In this document: piece after piece, positions 3,359 to 25,627 of the stretch | Layout of the letters: each line of letters opens with the position of its first letter | Position numbering within the stretch: position 1 is the stretch's first letter | Origin: a virus | Strand: one strand, 5' to 3' | IMG/VR virus record: IMGVR_UViG_3300042888_000560 | Coordinates: 1 to 28,928 of that record | Length of the DNA stretch: 28,928 nucleotides | Translations under genes and position numbers: made by a program | The notes under the pieces: model-generated | Database searches by the model: none | What the model was told of the DNA's origin: nothing | Seen by the model: the letters and a program-made list of their open reading frames with translations, nothing else

Positions 3359-6300
3359 ATGGCAGATCAGAATATAAACATAAAACTTCTAATCGACGCA
3401 GCGGAGTCTGCGAAAACGGTTCAAGAGACAAAGAAAGCACTAAGAGACTTAAAGACTGCGGCACTTCAAGTAGAAGAAGGCTCTCAGGCATTCCAATCCA
3501 TAACGACGGCCGCAGGTCAACTACAGGATAAAATCGGAGACCTTGGTGCGACTACTAAATATTTAGGAGATGACTTGAAGAACCTTAAAGGATTCACAAG
3601 CATTGCCTCTGGTATAGCTGGAGCATTCGCGGCAGCACAAGGAGCCGCTGCTTTATTCGGCGGACAAAACAAACAACTTGAAGCAAGTTTATTAAAAGTT
3701 CAATCTGCGATGTCTATACTTCAAGGGATTCAAGCAGTAGGAGAAGTTCTACAAAAAGAAAGTGCCGCTTCTTTATTTATTCAAAATGGATTAAGAAAAA
3801 CTACTATAGCACTGGCAGGTGAAGAAGCCATTGCTAAGGCTGGTGTTGCTGTTGCTAATGGAACTGCTACAATCACACAGAGAGCTTTAAATGCCGCAAT
3901 GACTGCTAACCCTGTGATGGCACTTGTTGCTGTCTTAGTAGTCGCTACAACGGCTTTAATGGCATTTAGTTCAAGTCAGAAAGAAGTTAGTGAAAGTCAA
4001 AAGGCTTTAAATGATAGTATATCAAAATCAAGAGCGGATCTTGAAGTAGAACTTAGAACATTCAACAGCCAAATAGAAGCATTAAAGCAACTAAAAACTG
4101 GTAGTGAGGAAAGAGCAATCGCAATCAAAAAGATAAACGACCAATATGGTACTACTTTGAAGAACCTTACTGACGAGACCGCATTCTTAAAGCAAGTAAA
4201 TATAGCACAAGCAGACTATGTAGTTGGTGCTAAAAACAGAATACTATCTAAGATAAACGAATCAAAGATAGAAGCTTTATTATTATTGGCACAACAACAA
4301 AGAGAATCTGGTGGTAGAATCCAAAGAATCAGAGATGAGATTGCTGATATCAAAAGAAAGAACTACTTCAATGAAGAGTTTAGAAGAGCCGATCTATCAC
4401 ATTGGAAACAACAACTTGAAGATGAAGCAGCAACAAATGATGCGATTGCTAAAGGATATGAAGCTAGAGCTGACAAGATTCTAAATATAAACGCGAATCT
4501 AAACACAAAAGAGACGGCTCAACAAAAAGCAGCAAGGGAAAAAGAGGCAGCAGATGCTTTAAAGGCGGAACAAGATAAAGCAAAATCAATCGCTGATTCT
4601 AAGACCAAAACGAATAATAGTAAAGTAAAGCAGGAGGCAGACTATCTTAAAAAACTAAAAGAGCTAAACGAAGAATATCAAAGAGCTCTTGACGAACTTG
4701 TTGTAGAGACCAACGACAATATTGCCCTACAACAAGAACTTTTACTAAACTCTTCTGGAGAAAGCGAAGCTAATGCTGTGGCACTACTAAGACTTGATAC
4801 TGAATCTCAAATAACCGAAGAGATTAGAAAACAAGAGACAGAACTACAAAAACTTGTAGATATCAAGGTAAAGGAGACAGAAGCTTCTACTGGCAAAGCT
4901 ATGACCGATGTCGAAAAAGCGACATTGAAAACAAAGATACAATCAGGTGCTGAATATCAAGCATATTTAAAAAGTAGTAATCTTGTAGTTCAAGCAATAA
5001 CAACGCAAGGAGAACAATCAATCTACGATATACAAAAAGACTGGGCTGAAAGAAGAAGAAAGCTTTTAGAAGAGACTACTAAAAGAGTTCTTGCGACAGA
5101 CGAGTATAAAAGATTCATTGATTTTCTAAACAACGCGAGACAAATGGAAATGAAGCTTTCCGAATATCAAAAGACTTTTGGTAAAGATGCGGTAGAAATA
5201 TTGAAATCTGATAAAGATATTCAAGATAGCAATAAATCTTATAGAGAAGGTCTTGAAGAGACAATCAAAACAGAAGAAGCTTTATTGGCGAGTAAACAAA
5301 GAAATGTTGACGAACAAAAAAGACTAAACAAAGAGCTTGTTGAAGGCGGAATGATAACACAACAAGATGTTGATAGAGCCATTGCGGAGATTGAAGCTGA
5401 AAATATAAAAAGTAAGAAAAAGATTGCTGACGCAAAGGAGTTCCTGAAAGAAGATCCACAACAGACAAAAATAGAAGCCAAAGGAGAAGGATTTTTTATT
5501 CAAGAGACTATCCCACAAAGTGCTGTTGAAGACCTTGAGAAGTACTATCAAAAATATAAAGGTAATGTTGAAGGCTTATTCGATCTTAGTAGAAAGTCAA
5601 ACTTAGACCAACTTGGTGCTAATCAAAAAAGCATTGAGATTCTTGCCGCACTATATGGAGAAAAATATAATATAATAAAGAAAGGTGAAGAAGATATAAA
5701 CAAATCTCTTGAAGGTAGTGGAATCAAGTTCGGTATAGACCCAAAAGAAGGTCAGGTTGGATTGGATGCCCTAATCGACCTGACAAAGAAAGAGAGTAAG
5801 GTTTTGACAGAAGCACAAAAAGAAAGAGTTCTTATTCTTCTTGGGGATAAAGATGGTCTAAATAAATCTTTGGCCGACAACTTCGCAAAGGTATCAGAAG
5901 AAGAACAAAAATATTTTGAAAAGGCTACTTTTGAAAACTACTCTAACCAACAAAAAAGACTTGCTGACAATAAAGCAGCTTATGCTACTGGCGAGATTAG
6001 TAAAAGGGAGTTCAGAAAAGAAGAAGAGAAGATAGACGAAGACTTCAACAAAGAAGAAGCAAATATAAAACAGAATCACGAGGAGAACCTTCTTGCGATT
6101 GGAGTTGTATATGGTGAAAAGACACAAGAATCTATAGTAGAGTTCGGGAAAGGTAGAAAAACTGAAAAGCAAAGACAAGCAGATGAAGAGATAGCTATCG
6201 AACAAAAGAAGAATGACTATCTGATTGCTGCGGCACAATCTCTATACAACACTTTAAGAAGTTTTGCTGATGCTACTATGGCTGAAAATATCAGCAGGAT

Positions 6301-6976
6301 AGAAGATGAAAGAGACGCAAGGCTATCTGATATAGACGCGGAACTTCTTGACTATGATAACAGAGACAAGCAGATAACTGCGGCAGAACAAGCAAAGATA
6401 GATGAAAGAAAAGTACTAGAAGAAAAAAAGATAGCTTTACAGGTAGAGTATGACAAAAAAGTAAGAGATGAAAAGATAAAGCAGTTCAACATAGATAAAG
6501 GAATGGATATCATACAGATTGGTATAAACACTGCTGTTGCCGTATCGAGAGCTTTAATCAAGGAAAAGTTTATGATTCCTTACATCATCACGGCAGGAGC
6601 CGCTGAAGCATTCTTTGTAGCAGCTCAACAGCCTAACTTTGCTGATGGTGGATTAGTTGTAGGGCCAGGTGGGCCAAAAGACGACAAGATCAAAGCGAAC
6701 CTTTCTAATGGAGAAGTAGTAATCAATGCGAAGTCTTCTAAGAAGTATGCCAAGATTTTGGATACTATCAACCAAGCTGGTGGCGGAAAGCCAATCCCAT
6801 TCAGAGATGGTGGAATGGCATCTGTTCCAGTATCTACTCCTTCTTATGATATGGAAGAGTTCAAGTCATTGGTTCTTGATATCATAAACAGACCTATCGA
6901 GACATATGTAAAAGAAAGTACGATAACTAACGCACAAAAGAGCCAAGCAGAACAGAACAGAAGAACATCTTTCTAA
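3359..6976 (+). CDS. Tail tape measure protein
   Basis: At 1205 residues this is the longest protein in the window. It is dominated by long charged helices rich in Glu, Lys, Gln and Ala, as expected for a protein that spans the tail lumen and sets tail length. Hydrophobic segments lie at about residues 80-102 (GIAGAFAAAQGAAALFGG) and 184-203 (PVMALVAVLVVATTALMAF), which could enter the host membrane at ejection. The C-terminal part has the typical signature 'FADGGLVVGPGGPKDDKIKA' followed by NLSNGEVVINAKSSKKY. Its tail chaperone pair is not adjacent, as is usual, but about 15 kb away at 21735-22501. A second oddity is that the gene sits directly upstream of the head genes. Confidence 0.9.
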   Translation: MADQNINIKLLIDAAESAKTVQETKKALRDLKTAALQVEEGSQAFQSITTAAGQLQDKIGDLGATTKYLGDDLKNLKGFTSIASGIAGAFAAAQGAAALFGGQNKQLEASLLKVQSAMSILQGIQAVGEVLQKESAASLFIQNGLRKTTIALAGEEAIAKAGVAVANGTATITQRALNAAMTANPVMALVAVLVVATTALMAFSSSQKEVSESQKALNDSISKSRADLEVELRTFNSQIEALKQLKTGSEERAIAIKKINDQYGTTLKNLTDETAFLKQVNIAQADYVVGAKNRILSKINESKIEALLLLAQQQRESGGRIQRIRDEIADIKRKNYFNEEFRRADLSHWKQQLEDEAATNDAIAKGYEARADKILNINANLNTKETAQQKAAREKEAADALKAEQDKAKSIADSKTKTNNSKVKQEADYLKKLKELNEEYQRALDELVVETNDNIALQQELLLNSSGESEANAVALLRLDTESQITEEIRKQETELQKLVDIKVKETEASTGKAMTDVEKATLKTKIQSGAEYQAYLKSSNLVVQAITTQGEQSIYDIQKDWAERRRKLLEETTKRVLATDEYKRFIDFLNNARQMEMKLSEYQKTFGKDAVEILKSDKDIQDSNKSYREGLEETIKTEEALLASKQRNVDEQKRLNKELVEGGMITQQDVDRAIAEIEAENIKSKKKIADAKEFLKEDPQQTKIEAKGEGFFIQETIPQSAVEDLEKYYQKYKGNVEGLFDLSRKSNLDQLGANQKSIEILAALYGEKYNIIKKGEEDINKSLEGSGIKFGIDPKEGQVGLDALIDLTKKESKVLTEAQKERVLILLGDKDGLNKSLADNFAKVSEEEQKYFEKATFENYSNQQKRLADNKAAYATGEISKREFRKEEEKIDEDFNKEEANIKQNHEENLLAIGVVYGEKTQESIVEFGKGRKTEKQRQADEEIAIEQKKNDYLIAAAQSLYNTLRSFADATMAENISRIEDERDARLSDIDAELLDYDNRDKQITAAEQAKIDERKVLEEKKIALQVEYDKKVRDEKIKQFNIDKGMDIIQIGINTAVAVSRALIKEKFMIPYIITAGAAEAFFVAAQQPNFADGGLVVGPGGPKDDKIKANLSNGEVVINAKSSKKYAKILDTINQAGGGKPIPFRDGGMASVPVSTPSYDMEEFKSLVLDIINRPIETYVKESTITNAQKSQAEQNRRTSF

Positions 6977-7014: not shown

Positions 7015-8094
7015 ATGGAAAAAAAGTTGCCAACATACAAGATTGTAGTCAATGAAGACGACAACGAGACAGGAGTCTACGGAATATCTTTAGTAGATTC
7101 TCCAGCTATCGAAGTAGACTGGATCAAGCTATCTAAAGAGCTTGAAGACATATTATTCTCTGCTAACAAAGACAAGCAGATGCTTTTTGGCCCTTTGTTG
7201 ATACCAGACAAGCTTATATTAAGAAGAGCTTCTAATGGAGACCTTTACAATATTGTTTTCGACAAAGAGACTATACAGACAATCGCTGACAAGTACAACG
7301 AAAACGGAGACAACAAAGCATTCAACTTTCAACATTCTGAAAAGTCTGTAGACGCAGTTCTTTTACAGAACTGGATAACAGGAAGCAATGATAAATCCCA
7401 AGACTACGGATTTTCTTTACCAGAAGGAACTTGGTTCGCTGGTGTAAAAGTAAAAGACGAATCATTTTGGATGAACGATGTAAAATCAGAAAAGGTAAAA
7501 GGATTCTCTATCGAGATCAAAGCCGAGACTGAACTAATAAAAATGACTTCCGAAATGGAAGATAAAAATAAAAACATAATACTTATGGAATACAAAACAA
7601 AAGACGGCCTAACACTAACTTGGGAAGGCGAAGGTGCCGTTGGAACAGAAGTGTTTTTGATATTGGAAGATGGAACTAAGGTTGCTGCTGATAACGGAAC
7701 ATACGAACTAGAAGACGGAACTAAGATTGTTGTTGCTGAAGGAAAAGTTGCTGAAATAATCGCAGCAGAAGAGTCTGTAGAAGAAGAAGAGATGGCTGAA
7801 GGAGATGTTCCTGCTGCTGCTCCTGTTGCTGAAGTTGACTATGTTGCTATCATCGATGAACTAAGAGGCGTAATCGCTGACCTTTCTTCAAGAGTAGACG
7901 CATTGGAAAATGTAGAACCTGCTGTCGAAGAAGAGACTGCTTTGTCAAAAGTAAAAGAGCTTGAAGAAAAACTTTCTGTTCTTTCTGAAAAAGCTGGTGC
8001 TTCAAGCATCAAAATCAAAACTGATCTTGAAATCAAAAGAGAAGAAAACGAAACTTATATCTTAAACAGATTAAACTCATTAAGAAGATATTAA
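7015..8094 (+). CDS. Prohead serine protease of XkdF type with C-terminal scaffold-like region
   Basis: A 359-residue protein. Residues 58-170 match the XkdF-like putative phage serine protease pattern: 'GPLLIPDKLILRR', 'NIVFDKETIQTIADKY', 'FNFQHS' with candidate catalytic His107, 'LLQNWITGS', 'LPEGTWFAGVKVKDESFW', and 'VKGFSIE' with candidate nucleophile Ser165. After residue 180 the protein becomes acidic and then carries a predicted coiled coil ('VKELEEKLSVLSEKAG'), ending in a basic tail. This resembles a protease fused to the scaffold that shapes the procapsid and is then cut away. It directly precedes the capsid gene, which supports this. The protein would act inside the assembling head in the host cytoplasm. 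Confidence 0.85.
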   Translation: MEKKLPTYKIVVNEDDNETGVYGISLVDSPAIEVDWIKLSKELEDILFSANKDKQMLFGPLLIPDKLILRRASNGDLYNIVFDKETIQTIADKYNENGDNKAFNFQHSEKSVDAVLLQNWITGSNDKSQDYGFSLPEGTWFAGVKVKDESFWMNDVKSEKVKGFSIEIKAETELIKMTSEMEDKNKNIILMEYKTKDGLTLTWEGEGAVGTEVFLILEDGTKVAADNGTYELEDGTKIVVAEGKVAEIIAAEESVEEEEMAEGDVPAAAPVAEVDYVAIIDELRGVIADLSSRVDALENVEPAVEEETALSKVKELEEKLSVLSEKAGASSIKIKTDLEIKREENETYILNRLNSLRRY

Positions 8095-8156: not shown

Positions 8157-9074
8157 ATGAAAAACGATTTTAAACTATCTTTCACAGATAACACGACTTT
8201 CTACGGAAAAGACGCAGAAGGATTCTATGCGAATGCGCTTTTAACTGGATCATCAAAAAGCCTTTTTACATTGGTGGCTAATGTAAAATCAAAAATCAAG
8301 TTAGCACAACTGAATATTGGCAACATACTTCAATCTGCTGATTGTACTTTTTCTAACACAGGAGAAGGAACTTTAGCTCAAAAATCTTTCGAGGTTGAAC
8401 CAATCAAAATCAACTTGTCTTATTGTAAAAGAACTTTCGAGACTAACTACCTTTCTCAAATCTTGAGACCAGGGTCTAACAACAACGAAGTAATGCCAGC
8501 ATCTGTTGAAGCATTCTTGTTGACTGAAGTATCTAACAAAGTATCTGCTGATTTAGAGCAGTTAGTATGGAAAGGGAATCTAGGATCTACGGCTTCTTAC
8601 CCATTGCCATTAGCTGACGGATTAGAAAAACAACTTTTAGCTGACACAGCTGTAATCGATGTTGCTTCTACTACATTGTCTGCTTCTAACATCATCGCAC
8701 AAATCTCTTTAGTATACAATGCTATCCCAGCACAAATATTAGACGAGGCTGTAATCATGCTTGGTTCTGCTGCTTATAGATTCTACAGACAAGCATTAGC
8801 TGCTGCGTCTGCTGAAGCTTACTACATCCAAGACCATTCTGAACTTTCTTTCTTAGGAGTAAAAGTAATCGAAGCAAAAGGAATGAGCGCTAACAGAATG
8901 GTAGCTGGTAGATTGTCTAACTTCTTATTATTGACTGACTTAATGTCTGATTTTGAAGCAGTTAGGATTTTACCACAATCTGAGATCACGGGCGAGCCAA
9001 CCGTTAGAATGACGGCAGAGTTCAAGTTCGCGGTAGGGTATGTATACGGTTCTGAAATCGTGTTCTACAACTAA
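8157..9074 (+). CDS. Major capsid protein
   Basis: A 305-residue protein directly after the protease/scaffold gene, with its own promoter motif and a strong terminator 15 nt downstream: the layout of a highly expressed capsid gene. The sequence has the pattern of capsid proteins of Bacteroidota phages: an N-terminal arm, 'TFSNTGEGTLAQKSFEVEPIKINLSYCKRTFETNYL', a central helical part, and a C-terminal 'FLGVKVIEAKGM...ANRMVAGRLSNFLLLTDLMSDFEAVRIL' domain ending with 'KFAVGYVYGSEIVFYN'. The HK97 fold is inferred from family knowledge. It would form the icosahedral shell, the protease cutting its arm or the scaffold. Confidence 0.85.
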   Translation: MKNDFKLSFTDNTTFYGKDAEGFYANALLTGSSKSLFTLVANVKSKIKLAQLNIGNILQSADCTFSNTGEGTLAQKSFEVEPIKINLSYCKRTFETNYLSQILRPGSNNNEVMPASVEAFLLTEVSNKVSADLEQLVWKGNLGSTASYPLPLADGLEKQLLADTAVIDVASTTLSASNIIAQISLVYNAIPAQILDEAVIMLGSAAYRFYRQALAAASAEAYYIQDHSELSFLGVKVIEAKGMSANRMVAGRLSNFLLLTDLMSDFEAVRILPQSEITGEPTVRMTAEFKFAVGYVYGSEIVFYN

Positions 9075-9795: not shown

Positions 9796-10953
9796 ATGAA
9801 GATTTTCGGATATCAAATAAATAAACAAAACCCATCTGTCGCAGAGCCTGAGACTATCAGCTATACTCCAGATGGTGTAGAAGGATTTTCTCTTTCACAA
9901 TGGACTGACCTGCCAAGAATAAAAGAAGATAGGAATAAAGAATGGGTAAACTATGGAGCAGACAATCTGTATCCAGAATATCTTAAAGATATGTTTAATA
10001 GTTCTCCTACACACCAAGCAATCGTAAAGACAAAAGCACAGATGATGGCTGGAGACGGATACGATGTCAAATGGGATCACTTGACAGAACAAGAAAAAAT
10101 AAATGCTTTGAAGATAATCGACGATGTAATGCGTGATATCAATGATACGACTCTTGACTTCCAACTATATGGAGCATTCATATATGAAGTAATATGGTCT
10201 CTTGACTTTTCAAGAGTAGTAGAGGTAAACAGATTAGACCCTGCTAACATCAGAAGCGGAAAGTTCGAAGAAGGAGCTGTTGAAGAGTACTACTACTCTA
10301 GAGATTGGGCTACACATAGACCAGAAGTAGTTGTCATTCCAACATTAGACCCTAAGAACAAGCAAGACCATAGACAGATTCTTTATGTACCAGTACAAAT
10401 GGTATCTAACGAATATTATGGAGAACCAGCATATCAAGCATCTATGGATTGGATAACTTTAGAATCACAGACTGGTCTTTACTATAAATCTTTGATAGAG
10501 AATGGATTCAATCCTTCTGTAATCATAAAGTTTTTCAGAAAACCAGGTTCATTGGAAGAAAGAAGTTCTATCGTAAATGGTCTTAAAAGATCCTTCGGCG
10601 GTGTGAAGAATAGCGGCAAAGCAGTCGTGCTTTTTTCGGATGGCAAAGAGTTAGCTCCTGAGATAATGCCAATCGATGTTGCGTCTGTAGACAAGCAGTT
10701 TACGGTAATCGCAGACCAGATAACTGAGAAGATACTTACTGGAGCTCGTATAACTACACCAGAACTTTTCGGTATCGCTATACCAGGTCAACTTGGAACA
10801 GGAGACTTTGGAATCAAAGTACAGGCATTCGAAAGATTCGTGGTTAGACCAGACCAGATAGTTCTTGAAAAGACTATAAACAACATATTGAGAATGAATA
10901 GCATAGATGTGAAGTTTTCATTCAACAGACTTAAAATAAATCCTACAGCATAA
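9796..10953 (+). CDS. Portal protein
   Basis: A 385-residue protein with typical portal features: an N-terminal 'EWVNYGADNLYPEYLKDMFNSSPTHQAIVKTKAQMMAGDGY' segment (the portal wing entry in Bacteroidota phages), the 'DVMRDINDTTLDFQLYGAFIYEVIW' helix and 'RLDPANIRSG', and a C-terminal helical part with 'RITTPELFGIAIPGQLGTGDFG' and 'FERFVVRPDQIVLEKTINNIL'. The portal forms the dodecameric ring at one vertex through which DNA enters and to which the terminase and connector bind. It overlaps the next gene by one base (TAATG). It is unusual that the portal lies downstream of capsid and tail tube and 8.5 kb from the terminase. Confidence 0.85.
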   Translation: MKIFGYQINKQNPSVAEPETISYTPDGVEGFSLSQWTDLPRIKEDRNKEWVNYGADNLYPEYLKDMFNSSPTHQAIVKTKAQMMAGDGYDVKWDHLTEQEKINALKIIDDVMRDINDTTLDFQLYGAFIYEVIWSLDFSRVVEVNRLDPANIRSGKFEEGAVEEYYYSRDWATHRPEVVVIPTLDPKNKQDHRQILYVPVQMVSNEYYGEPAYQASMDWITLESQTGLYYKSLIENGFNPSVIIKFFRKPGSLEERSSIVNGLKRSFGGVKNSGKAVVLFSDGKELAPEIMPIDVASVDKQFTVIADQITEKILTGARITTPELFGIAIPGQLGTGDFGIKVQAFERFVVRPDQIVLEKTINNILRMNSIDVKFSFNRLKINPTA

Positions 10954-12881: not shown

Positions 12882-13526
12882 ATGAAGAAAGGGGAAAACG
12901 CATATACAGATGAAGCAATATTGGAAAGAGCCGCGACACACGAGTCATTGGCAGCTCTAAGAAAGATTAGCTTCTCGTTCTACCAGCTGATACGAAGAAG
13001 AGGTCTGTTGGCAGAAGCAAGACATAGGTTTAATGTAGCGGCCGTAGAGAGATACTTGGCTATCAAGATAGAGAAAGAGAAGGAAGAGGCAGTCAAAGTC
13101 TCTAAGGGAGAGCCAATCGAGCCAAAGAAGAAGAGAGGTAGAGGCCCAGGAAAGAACAACAAGCCAAAGCCAGTCAAAGTTCCAAAGTCAACAGGTAGGA
13201 AGTCTGATACGTCATCATCGACGAACCTCTATAGAGCAGTGTTCGAAGGAGATGTGAAGATATGTGGTAGGTGCTTCATACACAATACTTGGACTTCTCG
13301 TTCGAACATATGTAGAAAGTGCTTGAAGTTCTACAACAACAAGCAGCTTAGGGGCCAGAATCACGCTCCGTGGAATGTGAAGCAGGAATATTGTAATAGC
13401 ATCATCAAGCACTATGAGAAAGAGTTCCATATTGGAATCCGAACAGACGAGAAGACACAGAAGTATCTATCAATGGTCGGATACGAGTTCATCTTCCAGG
13501 AGCCATATGAAGACTTCTGGAAGTAG
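12882..13526 (+). CDS. Zinc-finger / AT-hook-like DNA-binding protein
   Basis: A 214-residue basic protein. Residues 8-50 (YTDEAILERAATHESLAALR, ...FYQLIRRRGLLAEARHRF) resemble the small helical module that accompanies endonucleases in phages ('..e.i...a..y.sr.e.rk.....y..lrrrGll.e...h'). Residues 82-101 are strongly basic with an AT-hook-like core (KKRGRGPGKNN). Residues 128-147 hold a CxxC...CxxC zinc ribbon (C128, C131, C144, C147), followed by 'KFYNNKQLRGQN'. No catalytic nuclease motif is evident, so it may be a DNA-binding regulator or a degenerate homing-type endonuclease. Its base composition appears less AT-rich than that of its neighbours. It converges on the minus-strand gene at 13841. 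Confidence 0.6.
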   Translation: MKKGENAYTDEAILERAATHESLAALRKISFSFYQLIRRRGLLAEARHRFNVAAVERYLAIKIEKEKEEAVKVSKGEPIEPKKKRGRGPGKNNKPKPVKVPKSTGRKSDTSSSTNLYRAVFEGDVKICGRCFIHNTWTSRSNICRKCLKFYNNKQLRGQNHAPWNVKQEYCNSIIKHYEKEFHIGIRTDEKTQKYLSMVGYEFIFQEPYEDFWK

Positions 13527-13538
13527 AAACTTGTAGGT

Positions 13539-13841
13539 TTAGTAGAATGTTGGGTAAAGCTTTCTCGCGATAGCTTCCGATTGTTTTTGATACTCCAAAC
13601 AACCAGGGAAATATTCCTCTATGTCAGCACCAGATAGATAGATACTACTAATGTTGTCTTTGATTCTTTCGTCAACATGTCTAATGTTGGTTCTTTCGCC
13701 TTCTAGTAGAAGCGTTGATATTGCTTCAACAATCTGTTCGGAGTAGATGTTGTGATAGTATCCTGGCTCTAATGGTGCTTTGACTGGTCTGAATGGTCTT
13801 CCTTTCATAGAACCATTTTGACTGATGTGCGTTGCTTTCAT
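13539..13841 (-). CDS. Hypothetical protein (100 aa)
   Basis: The ATG at 13841 overlaps the stop of the upstream gene (ATGA), so it is probably translated by coupling to it. The protein begins MKATHISQNGSMKGRPFRPV, with a Pro/Gly-rich first part and a more helical second part (SEQIVEAISTLLLEGERTNI). The first four residues (MKAT) are shared with the product of the gene starting at 14428. No membrane segment or known motif is seen and the function is not recognised. Confidence 0.6.
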   Translation of the reverse strand: MKATHISQNGSMKGRPFRPVKAPLEPGYYHNIYSEQIVEAISTLLLEGERTNIRHVDERIKDNISSIYLSGADIEEYFPGCLEYQKQSEAIARKLYPTFY

Positions 13842-14089
13842 ATTCCTAGTTCTTTCAGTTTTTGGTCTCTAATAACTTGTTGTACGCTAAAGTAATAACC
13901 GATTGGTTCGCAGCTTATGAATACACATGTTGTATCATCGTCTTCTTTCTCTGCTCTTACCTCTACGACTTTATAGGTCTCTTTATTATAGTGTAGTGTT
14001 TGCCCTACTTCAAGTAGCATATCCCATTGTTTTTCGTGGATATGTTCTTCACCTTCTACTGGCAGGTAATAATAATATTCTGTTGTCAT
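13838..14089 (-). CDS. Hypothetical protein with C-terminal KLKELGI (83 aa)
   Basis: The start is set at 14089 (MTTEYYYYLP) rather than at the upstream ATG at 14119, because the sequence before 14089 is a copy of the leader found before the gene starting at 14428. The protein has the look of a small beta barrel: 'VGQTLHYNKETYKVVEVRAEKEDDDT' then 'TCVFISCEPI'. It ends in RDQKLKELGI, a tail shared with three otherwise unrelated small proteins in this window. The stop codon overlaps the next ATG. Function unknown. Confidence 0.65.
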   Translation of the reverse strand: MTTEYYYYLPVEGEEHIHEKQWDMLLEVGQTLHYNKETYKVVEVRAEKEDDDTTCVFISCEPIGYYFSVQQVIRDQKLKELGI

Positions 14090-14141
14090 ATTGTTTTCTT
14101 TGTTTATTGTATGTATCAAGTTCCAAAAGTTGTTTTTGGAA
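14090..14141 (-). promoter_or_regulatory. Leader with hairpin, copy 1 of a duplicated control region
   Basis: Reading toward the gene, a perfect 8-bp inverted repeat (TTCCAAAA / TTTTGGAA, 14121-14141, 5-nt spacer) is followed after 6 nt by the 14-nt sequence ACATACAATAAACA and then the ATG. The same arrangement occurs at 14429-14479. It may be an operator and promoter (TACAAT could be a -10 box) or a structured leader. Confidence 0.55.
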
Positions 14142-14428: not shown

Positions 14429-14479
14429 ATTGTCTTTGCTTGTTTATTGTATGTGTTGTCTTCTAAAAGTTGTTTAGAA
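14429..14479 (-). promoter_or_regulatory. Leader with hairpin, copy 2 of a duplicated control region
   Basis: TTCTAAA (14461-14467) pairs with TTTAGAA (14473-14479). Compared with copy 1 a C-G pair has become T-A on both arms, so the pairing is kept while the sequence changes. The same 14-nt block ACATACAATAAACA (complement of 14441-14454) follows at the same 6-nt distance. Confidence 0.55.
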
Positions 14480-14487
14480 CGCGCACC

Positions 14488-15122
14488 GAGGCTAGGGCTC
14501 GGCTCCTACATTCAGACATGTGGTGGTAATCCAAAAATATTATTATTAGTAATATAGTATATCATGATGTGGCATGTTTTGACAAAGATAAAAAAAACTT
14601 TCGAATAAAACAATAGGGGAGAAGAAGAATATAATATATACAATAAAGAGGTTCCTCCACAGGTACTGGCTCCTCGTTCTACCAAAGAATCAAAACAATA
14701 CCTTCTATGAGAAAGATAGTTCGAACTATCATCATAGTAAATCAAAACCACAGGTTGAAAGACATTCATATAAGGGCCGCAATCCTTATATGAATGGTGG
14801 TCGAGAAAAGTAGATAGAATGGAAAGGCAACCAATCTCGCTCTGTGCTACCTCACAACGAGTCCTTCATAGCAGAAATGCTTTAAGCCTGACCTCACCAA
14901 ATGAAATATGTCTCTTAACAATGAAAGAACATATCTGGAGGATCACAAGATTTAGCAAGGCTTGTGGGGTGCTATCTGCTAGGAAGAAAGAGTAATCTTC
15001 TTCAAATCTTTCATTAGTTTTCTCTTCTTAGAGATTCTTAATATGAAGGATAAAGGACTTGCTATATCTAATAACTAACCTAACAATATTATATCATAAA
15101 CTTAAAGTCGCCGAGCCGCCTC
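14488..15122 (+). ncRNA. Candidate large structured RNA closed by a long-range helix
   Basis: No convincing gene lies between 14428 and 15182. The segment is framed by a long-range helix: GAGGC + GGCTCGGC (14488-14503, with a TAG bulge) pairs with GCCGAGCCGCCTC (15110-15122), 13 bp. Inside are a perfect 12-bp hairpin (14764-14775 with 14784-14795) within a 5-bp stem (14747-14751 with 14797-14801); a two-part hairpin (14705-14710 with 14732-14737, inner 14715-14720 with 14725-14730); AGCA-GAAA-TGCT, a GNRA-type tetraloop on the plus strand (14870-14881); a stem 14906-14916 with 14925-14934; and longer pairings 14891-14897 with 14964-14970 and 14869-14875 with 14975-14981. The last competes with the small GNRA hairpin. 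Size and layout recall the large ornate phage RNAs such as GOLLD and ROOL. The plus strand is preferred only because of the GAAA loop. No promoter or terminator was identified. Confidence 0.55.
14567..14581 (-). repeat. CAAAACATGCCACAT repeat, copy 2
   Basis: Identical to 14163-14177 over 15 nt. The overlapping 16-nt block 14561-14576 is the exact reverse complement of 25586-25601. Confidence 0.6.
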
Positions 15123-15181
15123 CAGCGAGCGTGTCTAAACAAATAATGAATCTACAATATAATAAATATAAACAAAACACA

Positions 15182-15493
15182 ATGGAATATAGAACAAAAA
15201 ACAGACAAGTCAGAGAACTTGTTCGCTCAATCGAGCCAGATATTATCGAATGGATTGTCGATAAATACGACCTAGACAATGATAATGTCAAATCAGTAGA
15301 ATATGTCTTAGAGACACATCAAGCTTACGAATATCTTATAGAGGTAGAGGTAGAACTAAAAGAAGCAGTAGTAATGAGCTTCGGCGAATCTGAATATTAT
15401 GACATAAGATATAGCTTCGTGGTTGGTTCGGATCTTCTTAAAGAAGTTCAAGGATATAAAAGAGATAAAAAGCTAACAGAACTAGGAATATGA
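15182..15493 (+). CDS. Hypothetical protein with C-terminal KLTELGI (103 aa)
   Basis: The ATG at 15182 is chosen because it follows an A-rich leader; the frame is open further upstream (to 15059), but that part runs through the structured non-coding segment. The protein is acidic and mixed helix/strand: 'VRELVRSIEPDIIEWIVDKY' then 'AYEYLIEVEVELKEAVVMSF'. It ends in KRDKKLTELGI, the tail shared by three other small proteins here. Its stop overlaps the next start (ATGATG), so the two genes are coupled. Function unknown. Confidence 0.6.
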   Translation: MEYRTKNRQVRELVRSIEPDIIEWIVDKYDLDNDNVKSVEYVLETHQAYEYLIEVEVELKEAVVMSFGESEYYDIRYSFVVGSDLLKEVQGYKRDKKLTELGI

Positions 15494-15893: not shown

Positions 15894-16403
15894 TTATTTT
15901 CTCTTTTTCTTTTTAGGAATCATATTCGAACCACCATTCGCAGCCTTTGGAGCAAACCATACTTCTGCTATGACGTGATCCCACGCACCAGGAATATAGT
16001 CAAAGTGTATCGATACACTATCTACTGCTCTTTGACCTTCTGATGTCAAGAAAAAACCCATATCATTATTGTGGTTGTCTTCTGTTCTAAGCTCTTCTGG
16101 TATCGTAAAGACATGAAGACGAACCTTTCTAACTCCACCTTTACCAATCTCTTTGTCGATTGCTTTATACTCTGTATAGTTTTGGTCGTATAGAACTCTT
16201 CCTGCTGCCAAAAACACATCCTCTGTATCATAAGCCGTAATGATACCAAGCTGTCTATATACGCTATATGAAGTCTTTTTGACTCCGTCTGTTCTATCGT
16301 CTTTCAAAAACTCTTTGAAGCCTGCTGTCAAGTCTTGGAATCTATCAACAGAGAATCCTAACTCTGGGTGTGTCTGTGGTGCTAATGTCGTGTAGTTTTT
16401 CAT
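15894..16403 (-). CDS. Hypothetical protein with basic C-terminal tail (169 aa)
   Basis: A 169-residue soluble protein. It begins MKNYTTLAPQTHPELGFSVD and ends in a lysine-rich tail (PKKKKRK). The centre has alternating strands ('VRKVRLHVFTIPEEL', 'DSVSIHFDYIPGAWDHVIAE'). No known domain is recognised; the tail could bind nucleic acid. It has its own host-type promoter and a 3' terminator, so it is a single-gene unit, and its leader is almost identical to that of the gene upstream. This suggests co-regulated early expression. Confidence 0.65.
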   Translation of the reverse strand: MKNYTTLAPQTHPELGFSVDRFQDLTAGFKEFLKDDRTDGVKKTSYSVYRQLGIITAYDTEDVFLAAGRVLYDQNYTEYKAIDKEIGKGGVRKVRLHVFTIPEELRTEDNHNNDMGFFLTSEGQRAVDSVSIHFDYIPGAWDHVIAEVWFAPKAANGGSNMIPKKKKRK

Positions 16404-16426
16404 AATGTCTTTCTTTTAGTGTTTAA

Positions 16427-16457
16427 CAAATATACGGAACTTATATAGATTTACCAA
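16427..16457 (-). promoter_or_regulatory. Host-type (Bacteroidota) promoter TTG-N20-TATATTTG
   Basis: On the minus strand TTG (16457-16455) is followed after 20 nt by TATATTTG (16434-16427), matching the TAnnTTTG -7 and TTG -33 elements of Bacteroidota. It overlaps the end of the upstream gene and leads to the ATG at 16403. Confidence 0.7.
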
Positions 16458-16767
16458 CTTTTTTCAAAGATTTTAGAATATCATTGAAAACTTGATATTC
16501 ATCATACGAATATCCGAACGCTGGTAAAATAACTTCTCTCCATACCAACATCGCAAAGCTTGTAGTAAAGCACTCAAGCTCTTCATTCCAGATATCCGAA
16601 TCATTCATATAATCATCGTCAAGATTCAAAACTTTTTTCTCTTTTAAGTCTTTTACCATAGAGATAACATGATCTGTATCTACTAAATATCTTTGAGCTA
16701 TATCTCTTACGGTGCTAAACTTAGCAAACTCTTCTCTAAACTTTTCTTCGTTGAATGCGTTTTTCAT
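16441..16767 (-). CDS. Hypothetical protein, possible helix-turn-helix (108 aa)
   Basis: A 108-residue acidic protein. Residues 17-47 (FSTVRDIAQRYLVDTDHVIS, then MVKDLKEKKVL) look like a helix-turn-helix with a following helix, as in small winged-helix regulators; this is a pattern reading and not certain. The C-terminal part is 'DEYQVFNDILKSLKKVGKSI'. It has its own host-type promoter. It could regulate early genes, but direct evidence is lacking. Confidence 0.6.
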   Translation of the reverse strand: MKNAFNEEKFREEFAKFSTVRDIAQRYLVDTDHVISMVKDLKEKKVLNLDDDYMNDSDIWNEELECFTTSFAMLVWREVILPAFGYSYDEYQVFNDILKSLKKVGKSI

Positions 16768-16790
16768 AATGTTTTTCTTTTAGTGTTTAA

Positions 16791-16821
16791 CAAATATAGT
16801 GTTTATATTCCATATAAACAA
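16791..16821 (-). promoter_or_regulatory. Host-type (Bacteroidota) promoter TTG-N20-TATATTTG
   Basis: TTG (16821-16819), 20 nt, TATATTTG (16798-16791) on the minus strand: same spacing as the copy at 16427. The 34 nt from the start codon through the -7 element (16765-16798) differ from 16401-16434 at one base only. Confidence 0.7.
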
Positions 16822-17853: not shown

Positions 17854-18156
17854 ATGAATATAGATTGGAATGACATAGAAACATCACAAGAAGAACTTGA
17901 CGAGTTCAACAGATACTACGAATATGTAGAATCGCTGATAGCAGAAAGAGAAGGGCTTATATATGGAAAGTTCGGAGAATGCTTTGAATATACCTTTTGT
18001 AATAGAAAGAATGGAATGAACTTTGTATCATACTACAAAGCAGGAACAAAAGGAAAAAGAAAAAAAAGCCAGATTAAAGAGATTGAGGTAGATCCTTTTA
18101 ATAACTGGAAGATAAAAGAAAGAAGAAGTAAACTTTTAAAAGAGTTAGGAATATAA
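17854..18156 (+). CDS. Hypothetical protein with C-terminal KLLKELGI (100 aa)
   Basis: The gene starts 19 nt after the nuclease-like gene, so it is probably co-transcribed. The N-terminus is acidic (MNIDWNDIETSQEELDEFNR), the middle has 'FGECFEYTFCNRKNGMNFVS', and there is a basic patch (KGKRKKSQIK). It ends in RRSKLLKELGI, the tail shared with the products ending at 13838, 15493 and 19459. Unlike those, its stop codon does not overlap another start. A strong terminator follows. No function is recognised. Confidence 0.6.
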   Translation: MNIDWNDIETSQEELDEFNRYYEYVESLIAEREGLIYGKFGECFEYTFCNRKNGMNFVSYYKAGTKGKRKKSQIKEIEVDPFNNWKIKERRSKLLKELGI

Positions 18157-18988: not shown

Positions 18989-19202
18989 AGAAGAGTATAA
19001 AGGAAGAATGATATATGTTGGAGGAAATACATATGACTTTAACCTAATGACACAAGAACAACTTTCCATTATATGGAACGAACAACCTCGATTCAGACCA
19101 TTCTTAGAAGAAGTGGTACATTTAGAAGATGATACTATACTTACTCCTTCAGAGTTCGACGAAGCGATAAAGAAAACCATAAAATCAAAGAGAAGAAAGT
19201 AA
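18969..19202 (+). CDS. Hypothetical protein (77 aa)
   Basis: Three successive in-frame ATGs (18963, 18966, 18969) lie within the end of terS; the last is listed, the first would add two Met. The N-terminus 'MIKVRIKEEYKGRMIYVGGN' followed by 'TYDFNLMTQEQLSIIWNEQP' is of the type seen in small phage proteins that pack a beta strand pair against a helix. The C-terminus is very basic (KKTIKSKRRK). It is one of two small genes between the terminase subunits. Function unknown. Confidence 0.65.
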   Translation: MIKVRIKEEYKGRMIYVGGNTYDFNLMTQEQLSIIWNEQPRFRPFLEEVVHLEDDTILTPSEFDEAIKKTIKSKRRK

Positions 19203-19459
19203 TGGATTTTAGATCTAACCCTGAATGGGAGACTCGCAATCCAGAACTGGATAAACTGCTACAGCAAGGATTTTCCTATCAACATTCTTGGCACCAGACT
19301 GCCAAAAGAACAGGGTATGTAGAATATATCCTTTTCTTAAATGGTGTTGAAGTACTTAGATGGGAATCTGAGATGGGAATGTGTAATGATATGGTTGCCA
19401 TAATCAAAAAATATATCTCTGATAAAAGAGAACAAAAACTGAATGAGCTTGGAATCTGA
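19202..19459 (+). CDS. Hypothetical protein with C-terminal KLNELGI (85 aa)
   Basis: The ATG overlaps the stop of the previous gene by one base, and its own stop overlaps the ATG of the large terminase gene (TGATG), so the four terminase-region genes are chained by coupling. The protein contains 'FSYQHSWHQTAKRTGYVEYI' and 'LFLNGVEVLRWESEMGM' and ends in KREQKLNELGI, the tail shared by three other small proteins in the window. Function unknown. Confidence 0.65.
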   Translation: MDFRSNPEWETRNPELDKLLQQGFSYQHSWHQTAKRTGYVEYILFLNGVEVLRWESEMGMCNDMVAIIKKYISDKREQKLNELGI

Positions 19460-20628
19460 TGGAACTCCAAATAGAACATACTAGTGTCTTTACAAAGAAC
19501 TATGAATGCCTTAATGACGAGTCGATCCGATTCATAGTAAATCAAGGGTCGACTCGTTCATCTAAGACATATTCTCTTTGTCAGTTGATGATAGTATATT
19601 GCCTAAACAATCCAGGCAAGCTTGTCAGCATCGTTAGAAAGTCATTCCCTTCTCTTAGAAGTACCGTAATGAGAGATATGATAGATATTATGACTGAGCT
19701 AAAGATATACTCTGAGAAGCAGCATAACAAGACAGAAAACATATATGTCTTCGACAATGGTTCCAAGTTAGAGTTCTTTTCATTAGATGATTCGCAAAAA
19801 GTCAGAGGTAGAAAGAGAGATATTCTATGGGCCAACGAAAGCAACGAGCTATCATTCGAAGAGTTCAATCAACTAAACTTCAGAACATCTGAGAAGCTTT
19901 TCTTTGATTTTAATCCATCGGATTCAGACCACTGGCTTTATGAGCTTATGGATAAAGACAATGCTATAAAGATACATTCTACATACAAAGACAACTCGTT
20001 CCTATCGAAAGACCTTGTCAAAGAGATTGAAGAGTTGATAAAGGTAGACCAAGACTACTACAACATATATGCTTTAGGTCTTCCAAGTAAATCGAACCAT
20101 GTGATATATTCACACCAGAAGACATTCGAAGAATCTCCTATACCACAAGATACAATATGGGGATTAGACTTTGGATATCAACACCCTACTGCTTTAATCA
20201 GATGCGACTTCGTAGAGAACCACGTCTATGTCAAAGAAGCAATCTATGAATCCTATCTAACAACATTAGAACTTATTGAAAGAATGGGAATGTTAGGAAT
20301 ATCTAAAAGAGATACGATAGTAGCAGACTACGCGAGACCAGAGATAATCGAAGAGATTAGAAGAGCTGGATACAATATACACAATGCTATAAAGAATGTC
20401 AAAGAAGGGATTGACGCAGTCAAATCCATTGGTCTAAGCTATCATCAAGACTCTAATAATGTTGCCAGAGAGTTCAGGAACTATAAATGGAAAGTCATAA
20501 ACGAAAAGCTACAAGACGAACCTGTAAAGCTCCACGATGACGCGATGGATGCGATTAGGTATGCTATACTTTACAAAAAGAAAATGGGTGGTTCAGCCGG
20601 TGAGATTTATGATTTTGGATACTTGTAA
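19459..20628 (+). CDS. terL: Terminase large subunit
   Basis: A 389-residue packaging motor of the PBSX-type terminase group. The ATPase domain has the modified Walker A 'QGSTRSSKT' (residues 29-37) and Walker B 'DILWANE' with catalytic Glu127. The nuclease domain has 'WGLDFGYQHPTALIR' (Asp237), 'IVADYARPEIIEEIRRAGY' (Asp290) and the C-terminal 'HDDAMDAIRYAI' (Asp360/361/364). The length is slightly under the usual 400-450. It pumps DNA into the procapsid at the portal and cuts the concatemer. In most related phages the portal follows directly; here a sigma-like gene and the tail genes follow instead. Confidence 0.95.
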   Translation: MELQIEHTSVFTKNYECLNDESIRFIVNQGSTRSSKTYSLCQLMIVYCLNNPGKLVSIVRKSFPSLRSTVMRDMIDIMTELKIYSEKQHNKTENIYVFDNGSKLEFFSLDDSQKVRGRKRDILWANESNELSFEEFNQLNFRTSEKLFFDFNPSDSDHWLYELMDKDNAIKIHSTYKDNSFLSKDLVKEIEELIKVDQDYYNIYALGLPSKSNHVIYSHQKTFEESPIPQDTIWGLDFGYQHPTALIRCDFVENHVYVKEAIYESYLTTLELIERMGMLGISKRDTIVADYARPEIIEEIRRAGYNIHNAIKNVKEGIDAVKSIGLSYHQDSNNVAREFRNYKWKVINEKLQDEPVKLHDDAMDAIRYAILYKKKMGGSAGEIYDFGYL

Positions 20629-23420: not shown

Positions 23421-25583
23421 ATGCCAGTACAAATATTAAGCAGACCATATTCCACAATAACACCAAAGCTTCTTCCTGTATATAATGGAGCTGCTTTCGT
23501 TCTTGACTCTAACCTAAAGAGCAGGCCGAACTTTAGATATATCGCGGAGATATTCGTAGACAATCAAAAAGTATCAGAGCTAAGACATCATCCAGACATA
23601 TCTCACGACAACAAAGGAGTCTTTGAAGTAGGAAGGATATTAGAGAACTTCATATCATATGATATAGAAGTACAATCTACTGCCGGAACATACAATGGTG
23701 AAAAGACTAACAGAACCTTTTCTGTAGACTTTGGAGAAGAATATTCTGGAGCAAACCCTATCAGCAAGATGTCTCCTATAGGTAGTAATGTCAGAGTATA
23801 TACTACAGACACCGCTGCGTTCGCGACTTGGCAGGCTGGTTCATACATATTTATAGAAGGATGTAATGTCAACTCTTTGAATGGATGGGCTAAGATAGAA
23901 TCTACTGCTTCTTCTTCTGCTTTAGTATCTGGATTGACTTGGCCTTCAGGAGTAGCACCTGACTTCTCTAATACTTTCTACTATCAAGGATATTCAAGTT
24001 CAGGATTGGCAACTGCTTGGTCGTATACTACAATCAATGGAGTTCTACATCCTGTTCTACATCTAAAGAATGGAAATCTAACAGGAACAGCAGGGATTGA
24101 TAGAGTAAAACTTTATGTTGGAAGTAATGTCATAGTAAAGCAGACTGGTACTGGCGCACCAAAAATAGCAAGCTACGAATCTGTAGAATGGAAAGTTCTT
24201 TCTAAAAGTCTTACAAGTGTTGGTGGTGTATATGGTGTGAAGATAGTCTTTAGTGCTCCTTATGGTGGAGTAATGCCAAATGGTATAGTTGGTTCTGTAA
24301 TATCAAGAGATAATATCGTCATTAAAAAACAGACTACTACTTCTGGAGATAGTGCTTATGTCTTCAATGGTGCTTTACAATATCAAGAATATCTTGATTG
24401 GAACCCAATATCTTGGATACCAGGGCACACATCAAGAAAGTTCCTATCTACAAGACCAGATTCACAAAAGAATATCAATGTATGTGCTAACGAACATTGG
24501 GTTCTTTCTACTTTTGGAAGAAAGCAAATGTCTACAGCCGACGCGAACAGCACATATCTTCAAGTAGAGACTTGGAGCACTACTCTTCCACATATTGGAA
24601 CTGGCCCATTGACAACAGCAACTATACCTGGTATCTCAGGAACTTTGTTTTGGAGAATATTGGTTCCGACTGCTTCTGTAGGTAGTAAATATAAAGAAGG
24701 AGATTATGTATCTATAACATCTCCATTGAATGGAACACAAACCGTTCAAGTTGCCTACAAGCTTGCTTCCGGGCCCAACACATATATTTATATAAACTAC
24801 ACTGGAGCATTGATTCCACAGAATGGTACTATAGAAAGAAAGATTGCTGTAATATATCATTTAGAAGCTTTAAAAGATACTAACACGATACTTCCTTGTG
24901 GCCCTGCGAACTTCAAGTTGAATGGAGCATATCCAGAGTTCATAGATTTAAGTTGCTATAAATATTTTGTCAGATCTGTTAGGAACAATCTACCAGGAAT
25001 ATATACTCCTTGGAACTGGAACAGATATCCAGTATCAGAGACTTGGACTTTCAACATCTCTTGTGATTGTGTATCGAAGACTAAGTACAAGCTTATGTGG
25101 TTGAATCCAATGGGTGGATGGGACTTCTATACATTCGACCTAGCGAGCAATAAATCTTTGGTAATAGAAAAGTCTAACTATCAAAAGAAGCTTAAAGAGG
25201 TAAAGTCTAACAATGTATATAGATACAATCAAGGTGATAGAGGAACTACAGCTTATGACACGAAGTCAAGACTGAACTATATCGTGAGATCCAACTTCTT
25301 GACACAAGAGAAGATAGAATGGCTTTCTTGGATATATGAATCTCCAGAAGTATATTGGATAGACGAGACGAATAACAAGCTTCATCCTATCAACTTGACT
25401 TCTACAGATGTTGATGTTCCTAACAAGCAGAATGCTGGGGAGGCAGGTCATCTTTACATATATACTATAGAGTTCAAGACTGCTTATGACAGAACTATAC
25501 AGAAAGGTGGAGATGTTCTCTACACCGCGACAAGCAATACTTTCGGTCAATGGGTACAGACATATCCATCAGCTTGGTACTAA
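23421..25583 (+). CDS. Large distal tail / tail-tip protein (720 aa)
   Basis: A 720-residue beta-rich protein. The N-terminus 'MPVQILSRPYSTITPKLLPV' followed by 'YNGAAFVLDSNLKSRPNFRY' and 'VFEVGRILENFISYDI' is the opening of large tail proteins in Bacteroidota phages that take the distal tail or hub position. The middle has repeated beta elements; the C-terminus ends with 'NTFGQWVQTYPSAWY'. A segment around residues 540-560 (SCDCVSKTKYKLMWLNPMGG) holds close cysteines and a 'WLNPMGGWDFYTFD' strand that is also typical of this group. It lies just after the neck genes and before the 1078-residue tail protein. No enzymatic motif is visible. Confidence 0.65.
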   Translation: MPVQILSRPYSTITPKLLPVYNGAAFVLDSNLKSRPNFRYIAEIFVDNQKVSELRHHPDISHDNKGVFEVGRILENFISYDIEVQSTAGTYNGEKTNRTFSVDFGEEYSGANPISKMSPIGSNVRVYTTDTAAFATWQAGSYIFIEGCNVNSLNGWAKIESTASSSALVSGLTWPSGVAPDFSNTFYYQGYSSSGLATAWSYTTINGVLHPVLHLKNGNLTGTAGIDRVKLYVGSNVIVKQTGTGAPKIASYESVEWKVLSKSLTSVGGVYGVKIVFSAPYGGVMPNGIVGSVISRDNIVIKKQTTTSGDSAYVFNGALQYQEYLDWNPISWIPGHTSRKFLSTRPDSQKNINVCANEHWVLSTFGRKQMSTADANSTYLQVETWSTTLPHIGTGPLTTATIPGISGTLFWRILVPTASVGSKYKEGDYVSITSPLNGTQTVQVAYKLASGPNTYIYINYTGALIPQNGTIERKIAVIYHLEALKDTNTILPCGPANFKLNGAYPEFIDLSCYKYFVRSVRNNLPGIYTPWNWNRYPVSETWTFNISCDCVSKTKYKLMWLNPMGGWDFYTFDLASNKSLVIEKSNYQKKLKEVKSNNVYRYNQGDRGTTAYDTKSRLNYIVRSNFLTQEKIEWLSWIYESPEVYWIDETNNKLHPINLTSTDVDVPNKQNAGEAGHLYIYTIEFKTAYDRTIQKGGDVLYTATSNTFGQWVQTYPSAWY

Positions 25584-25585
25584 AT

Positions 25586-25601
25586 CATGCCACATCATGA
25601 T
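25586..25601 (+). repeat. CATGCCACAT repeat, plus-strand copy
   Basis: Sixteen bases identical to the reverse complement of 14561-14576, lying 26 nt before the ATG at 25628. As with the other copies it is upstream of a gene on that gene's sense strand. Confidence 0.5.
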
Positions 25602-25627
25602 AATAACTTAAAATAAATAATATAAAA

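Follow-up and report, generated by a model that had tools for sequence, protein, structure and literature searches.

The segment 14488-15122 of this phage probably holds a large, uncatalogued, non-coding structured RNA, a candidate for a new family. We regard it as probably a working RNA because related viruses keep its fold while the sequence changes. The window analyzed here is the complete IMG/VR record IMGVR_UViG_3300042888_000560, which comprises 28,928 bases. The original prediction was of a new large phage RNA of 635 nt, closed by a 13-bp helix between two distant arms; an uncatalogued, structured and covarying RNA was indeed recovered, but its conserved core measures ~430 nt, and the arms lie outside it (Table 1).

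Table 1. Position, strand and support of the features in and around the RNA core.
Feature	Position	Strand	Support
Structured RNA, conserved core, ~430 nt	14645-15078	+	Homologues; RNAalifold z -9.4; 21 double-compensatory pairs
Promoter-like motif GAATATAATATATACAATA, directly 5' of the core	14625-14644	+	Recurrence; putative promoter
P2 with inner P2a	14661-14703	+	One compensatory pair, UA to CG
Two-step hairpin P3/P3a	14705-14737	+	In consensus fold; P3 invariant
P4/P4a, outer stem around a 14-bp hairpin; conserved 11-nt bulge that begins with AGGUU	14742-14806	+	P4a with three compensatory pairs
Possible pseudoknot between the bulge AGGUU (14752-14756) and the (A/U)ACCU loop (14848-14852)	14752-14852	+	
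P5, long-range helix closing the 3' domain (14808-14817 with 14972-14981)	14808-14981	+	Double change in 4/10 pairs
P6a/P6b hairpin with ACCU loop	14836-14861	+	Three compensatory pairs
P6c hairpin with GNRA tetraloop	14870-14881	+	Double change in 3/4 stem pairs
P8 hairpin, its GUAA (GNRA) loop conserved	14983-15003	+	One compensatory pair
5' arm, terminator-like hairpin module TAGAACGCGC-CCGAG..CTCGG	14475-14510	+	Same module in L088 and L100; related in L024
3' arm, same hairpin module as an inverted copy	15105-15142	-	Closest relative L024 12340-12372, after tail-gene stop codon

The window carries genes of a tailed phage, namely those for a terminase (19459-20628), a portal-like protein (9796-10953), a tape-measure-like protein (3359-6976), a head protein (8157-9074) and a protease-like protein (7015-8094). 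Since the closest terminase relatives among named phages belong to Parabacteroides and Bacteroides phages (~33-34% identity), the host is likely a member of the Bacteroidota.

Homologues of the segment were sought by blastn in a set of 91 loci, which had been retrieved through the terminase and head proteins. L017 and L018 matched it at 78.5% over 228 nt and 73% over 109 nt, and scanning for a DNA motif also yielded L100 (91% over 577 nt; 93% over 438 nt for the core alone) as well as L097, which is 99% identical to L017. Because L017, L018 and L097 are near-identical, the distinct homologous sequences number three: the window, L100 and this group. Four core motif probes each found these same contigs, their remaining matches being unrelated and due to chance; L088 stops just past the 5' flank and arm, and L019 retains a 48-nt edge of the segment. 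The homologue of the gene at 12882, which lies beside the RNA, is only ~25% identical between the window and L017, as against ~78% over 228 nt for the RNA itself. A genome pattern scan gave 13 matches whose surroundings did not resemble the core, a blastn search of phage and plasmid records gave no real match to the segment, and a covariance model (R1) run against 71 sources, 16 viral records and ~700 bacterial genomes returned the known copies as its only strong full-length matches. The weak R1 matches in genomes scored 20-31 bits, one of them spanning the long hairpin only. As originally proposed, the region appears to be non-coding: none of the reading frames stays open throughout the core in all three homologues, and a protein-coding reading was rejected on that ground. 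An 85-aa minus-strand ORF (14512-14769) was also dismissed as a gene, its frame being broken in L017 and L018.

The alignment of the core comprises 468 columns from the three distinct sequences, which have 19 helices in common. The RNAalifold consensus of the + strand reaches -95.3 kcal/mol against -45.8±5.3 in column shuffles. Double compensatory changes occur in 21 of the 129 pairs of the + structure, the added pseudoknot included, compared with 8.3±2.2 in shuffles and 0-4 in slid controls, although these shuffle statistics rest on three sequences and are a guide rather than proof. Paired cells amount to 94.3%, falling to 40-46% when partners are slid. Covariation in homologues, suggested with the original prediction as a check, was thus found, and related phages appear to keep a non-coding, covarying secondary structure of the core; the signal is limited because the distinct sequences are only three. 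The best-supported helices are P5, with four double changes, P4a, P6 and P6c, with three apiece, and P6a/P6b, which have three between them. The invariant helices, P3, outer P4 and most of the pseudoknot, are consistent with the fold but carry no covariation signal, and support is weak for P1 and for parts of P7 and P9. The P6c loop stays GNRA while its stem varies, reading GAAA in the window and GCAA in L017. A pseudoknot between the AGGUU bulge and the ACCU loop is possible within the core; the complementarity is nearly invariant, with 4 bp in the window and 5 bp in the other two homologues. The stems named in the original prediction are all present where it placed them, and its internal elements (14705-14737, 14764-14795 within a further stem, 14870-14881 and the bulged 14906-14934) all recur in the consensus fold of the three homologues.

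The promoter-like motif, with TATAATATATA at 14630, stands upstream of the core and downstream of the 5' arm. Related motifs are found where + strand genes start near 18152 and 18534 and also in L100, L017, L028 and L085; in L017 the motif lies ~100 nt upstream of the core. The stretch 14518-14645 shares ~70% identity with the sequence that precedes a protein gene in L028 and L035. From the sequence we infer a transcript start near 14645, and likewise the transcript ends.

The pairing between the arms was reproduced to the letter, with GAGGC at 14488-14492, TAG, GGCTCGGC at 14496-14503 and GCCGAGCCGCCTC at 15110-15122. In the window the flank-to-flank duplex has a predicted energy of -58.8 kcal/mol, matched by 0/300 dinucleotide shuffles. 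Pairing of the flanks also exceeds shuffles in L100 and L030; in L017 it does not, the flank duplex (-22.3) there being weaker than most shuffles. Each arm examined is also able to form a hairpin of its own. In L100 the TAGAACGC-hairpin module is present in both orientations, each copy behind the stop codon of a convergent gene. L024 has a similar module behind a tail-gene stop codon, and L030 has one behind a minus-strand gene. Other hairpins follow the homologue of the 12882 gene in L085 and L035 and a convergent gene in L017, and a GTGGTGGG-like stretch is found downstream of the hairpin in L100, L088, L024, L035 and L085. We conclude that the 13-bp arms are probably inverted copies of a terminator-like module and not the two ends of one RNA. 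The simplest reading is that the module is a putative terminator used in both directions, the neighboring genes of the window having since been exchanged; the arms may nevertheless contribute to the RNA. Two further stretches were noted in relatives. In L085, a very stable hairpin (16204-16277, -33.8 kcal/mol) stands directly behind the stop codon of the 12882 homologue. In L030, a close relative (terminase 80%), the long stretch between similar arms (170-640) lacks a credible gene, is unrelated in sequence to the window RNA, has only mildly unusual fold scores and matches no Rfam family.

A single 635-nt RNA with both ends joined by the arms, as first proposed, is unlikely. The complementarity in the window speaks for it, as does that in L100, which is perfect over 32 nt despite different arm sequences; the L100-type arm sequence was found in L100 and L088 only, and the latter contig ends just past the 5' arm. 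However, the L017 group has the RNA without the arm pairing, the arms of L030 surround unrelated content that includes a protein gene, and a related module stands alone behind a stop codon in L024; in L035 and L085 the 12882 homologue is followed by other hairpins. The promoter-like motif moreover separates the 5' arm from the core, and homology to the upstream regions of protein genes reaches 14645. The same perfect 32-bp inverted repeat of L100, together with sporadic presence and differing gene neighbors, could suggest a mobile DNA cassette of MITE-like type, bounded by terminal inverted repeats, but this is highly improbable: the flanks of the L017 copy are unpaired, so that inverted repeats are not on all copies, the window has a single copy, visual inspection of the window and L100 showed no flanking target duplication, and the conserved part folds with compensatory changes.

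The functional RNA would lie on the + strand. A minus-strand product is distinctly unlikely, even though minus folds are good (z -5.9 for the full segment in the window; consensus -89.7 kcal/mol, z -7.5 against column shuffles) and the G-U/A-C evidence on helices predicted for both strands is neutral (4 vs 4). The + strand is favored by the GNRA loops, the consensus z, the orientation of the promoter-like motif and the single-sequence z, which is better on + in all three homologues (+/-: -3.4/-2.8, -3.7/-2.2 and -3.6/-3.0). A long cis-acting leader controlling the genes at 15146/15182-15852 would fit the position of the RNA just upstream of + strand genes in the window, but we hold it to be very unlikely, as the next downstream gene is convergent in L100 and L017, two of the three homologues, and the RNA is therefore not a leader of that gene there. 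The neighboring genes also differ among the homologues, which together with their convergence on the RNA argues for a free-standing accessory RNA. In close relatives the slot after the 12882 homologue is taken by a 396-aa gene (L085) or a 343-aa gene (L028, L035), so the RNA itself behaves as an accessory gene. As the structural genes are reversed in L100, we considered whether recombination at the arms had inverted the RNA; this was rejected, since the orientation of the RNA relative to the 12882 homologue is kept. As to the proteins of the slot, the 396-aa family (L085 16498-17688, L012, L023) has no Pfam match, has motifs that look vaguely polymerase-like by eye and gave no usable structure prediction (pLDDT 38.7); the 343-aa family is found at L028 2580-3611 and in L035.

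The reading that we favor, and consider reasonably likely, is thus of a free-standing, trans-acting structured non-coding RNA of ~430 nt, encoded as an accessory gene on the + strand, for which a role as scaffold or decoy is likeliest. It would probably be transcribed from its own phage promoter at ~14625-14645 and fold into two domains, a 5' one formed by P2-P4 and a 3' one that P5 closes, followed by the hairpins P8/P9; the bulge-loop pseudoknot may link the two domains. Terminator-like hairpins would insulate this accessory gene in a variable genome slot, their inverted copies giving the appearance of a closing helix. As our best guess, such a scaffold or decoy would bind, in the course of infection, a protein of either the host or the phage.

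Several other features recur in these phages. Many small, otherwise different proteins share a C-terminal motif, ~R(D/R)xxLxxLG(I/L)-stop, possibly a tag or interaction motif; it is found in the window (13838-14119(-), 15146-15493(+), 17854-18156(+), 19202-19459(+)), in L017 (1363-1602, 2999-3202, 3199-3489), in L030 (1221-1466, 5124-5360), in L085 (18549-18944) and in L028 (4925-5233). The intergenic motif TATCATGATGTGGCATGTTTT occurs in the window at 14560-14580(+) and 25582-25602(-), the copies being 95% alike, and in L006, L013 and L017-L019; it lies in either orientation near gene starts and is a possible regulatory site. A 40-nt direct repeat (98%; 16395-16434 and 16759-16798) at the start of two minus-strand genes is likely a shared promoter or leader, and similar stretches are present in several relatives.

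In agreement with the statement that no named family could be assigned, Rfam covariance models matched no family to the segment beyond chance-level snoRNA and miRNA hits, and those of GOLLD, ROOL and OLE gave no match at the gathering score or at E up to 10; membership in these three was rejected accordingly. GOLLD and ROOL are large phage-borne RNAs that form cages and have unknown function; both are often near tRNA islands, many GOLLD RNAs exceed 800 nt, and the solved ROOL example has 659 nt and an elaborate, pseudoknotted fold (PMC12286853). The suggested likeness to them holds in kind only. The RNA described here is, like GOLLD, large and phage-borne and, like ROOL, non-coding with an elaborate fold, but at ~430 nt it is smaller than either, and ARAGORN found no tRNA in the 28,928 bases of the window. 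OLE, too, spans hundreds of nucleotides with extensive structure, but is ~600 nt long and occurs mostly in Bacillota that are Gram-positive extremophiles or anaerobes (PMC12054373). By analogy, the RNA might represent a compact new class of phage RNA machine, assembling, like GOLLD and ROOL, into an RNA-only or RNA-protein complex in the infected cell and occupying the slot of a sister-phage protein gene, which we judge quite unlikely.

In summary, the observation is real, and the RNA, apparently new, is a candidate for a family of its own. The correction of its closing helix carries a warning that inverted terminator-like modules can mimic the ends of a large RNA. Catalogued large structured phage RNAs are few and their functions open. 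A new compact family would be an object for structural work, and its homologues in several environmental phage contigs may offer a handle on why phages invest in large RNAs.
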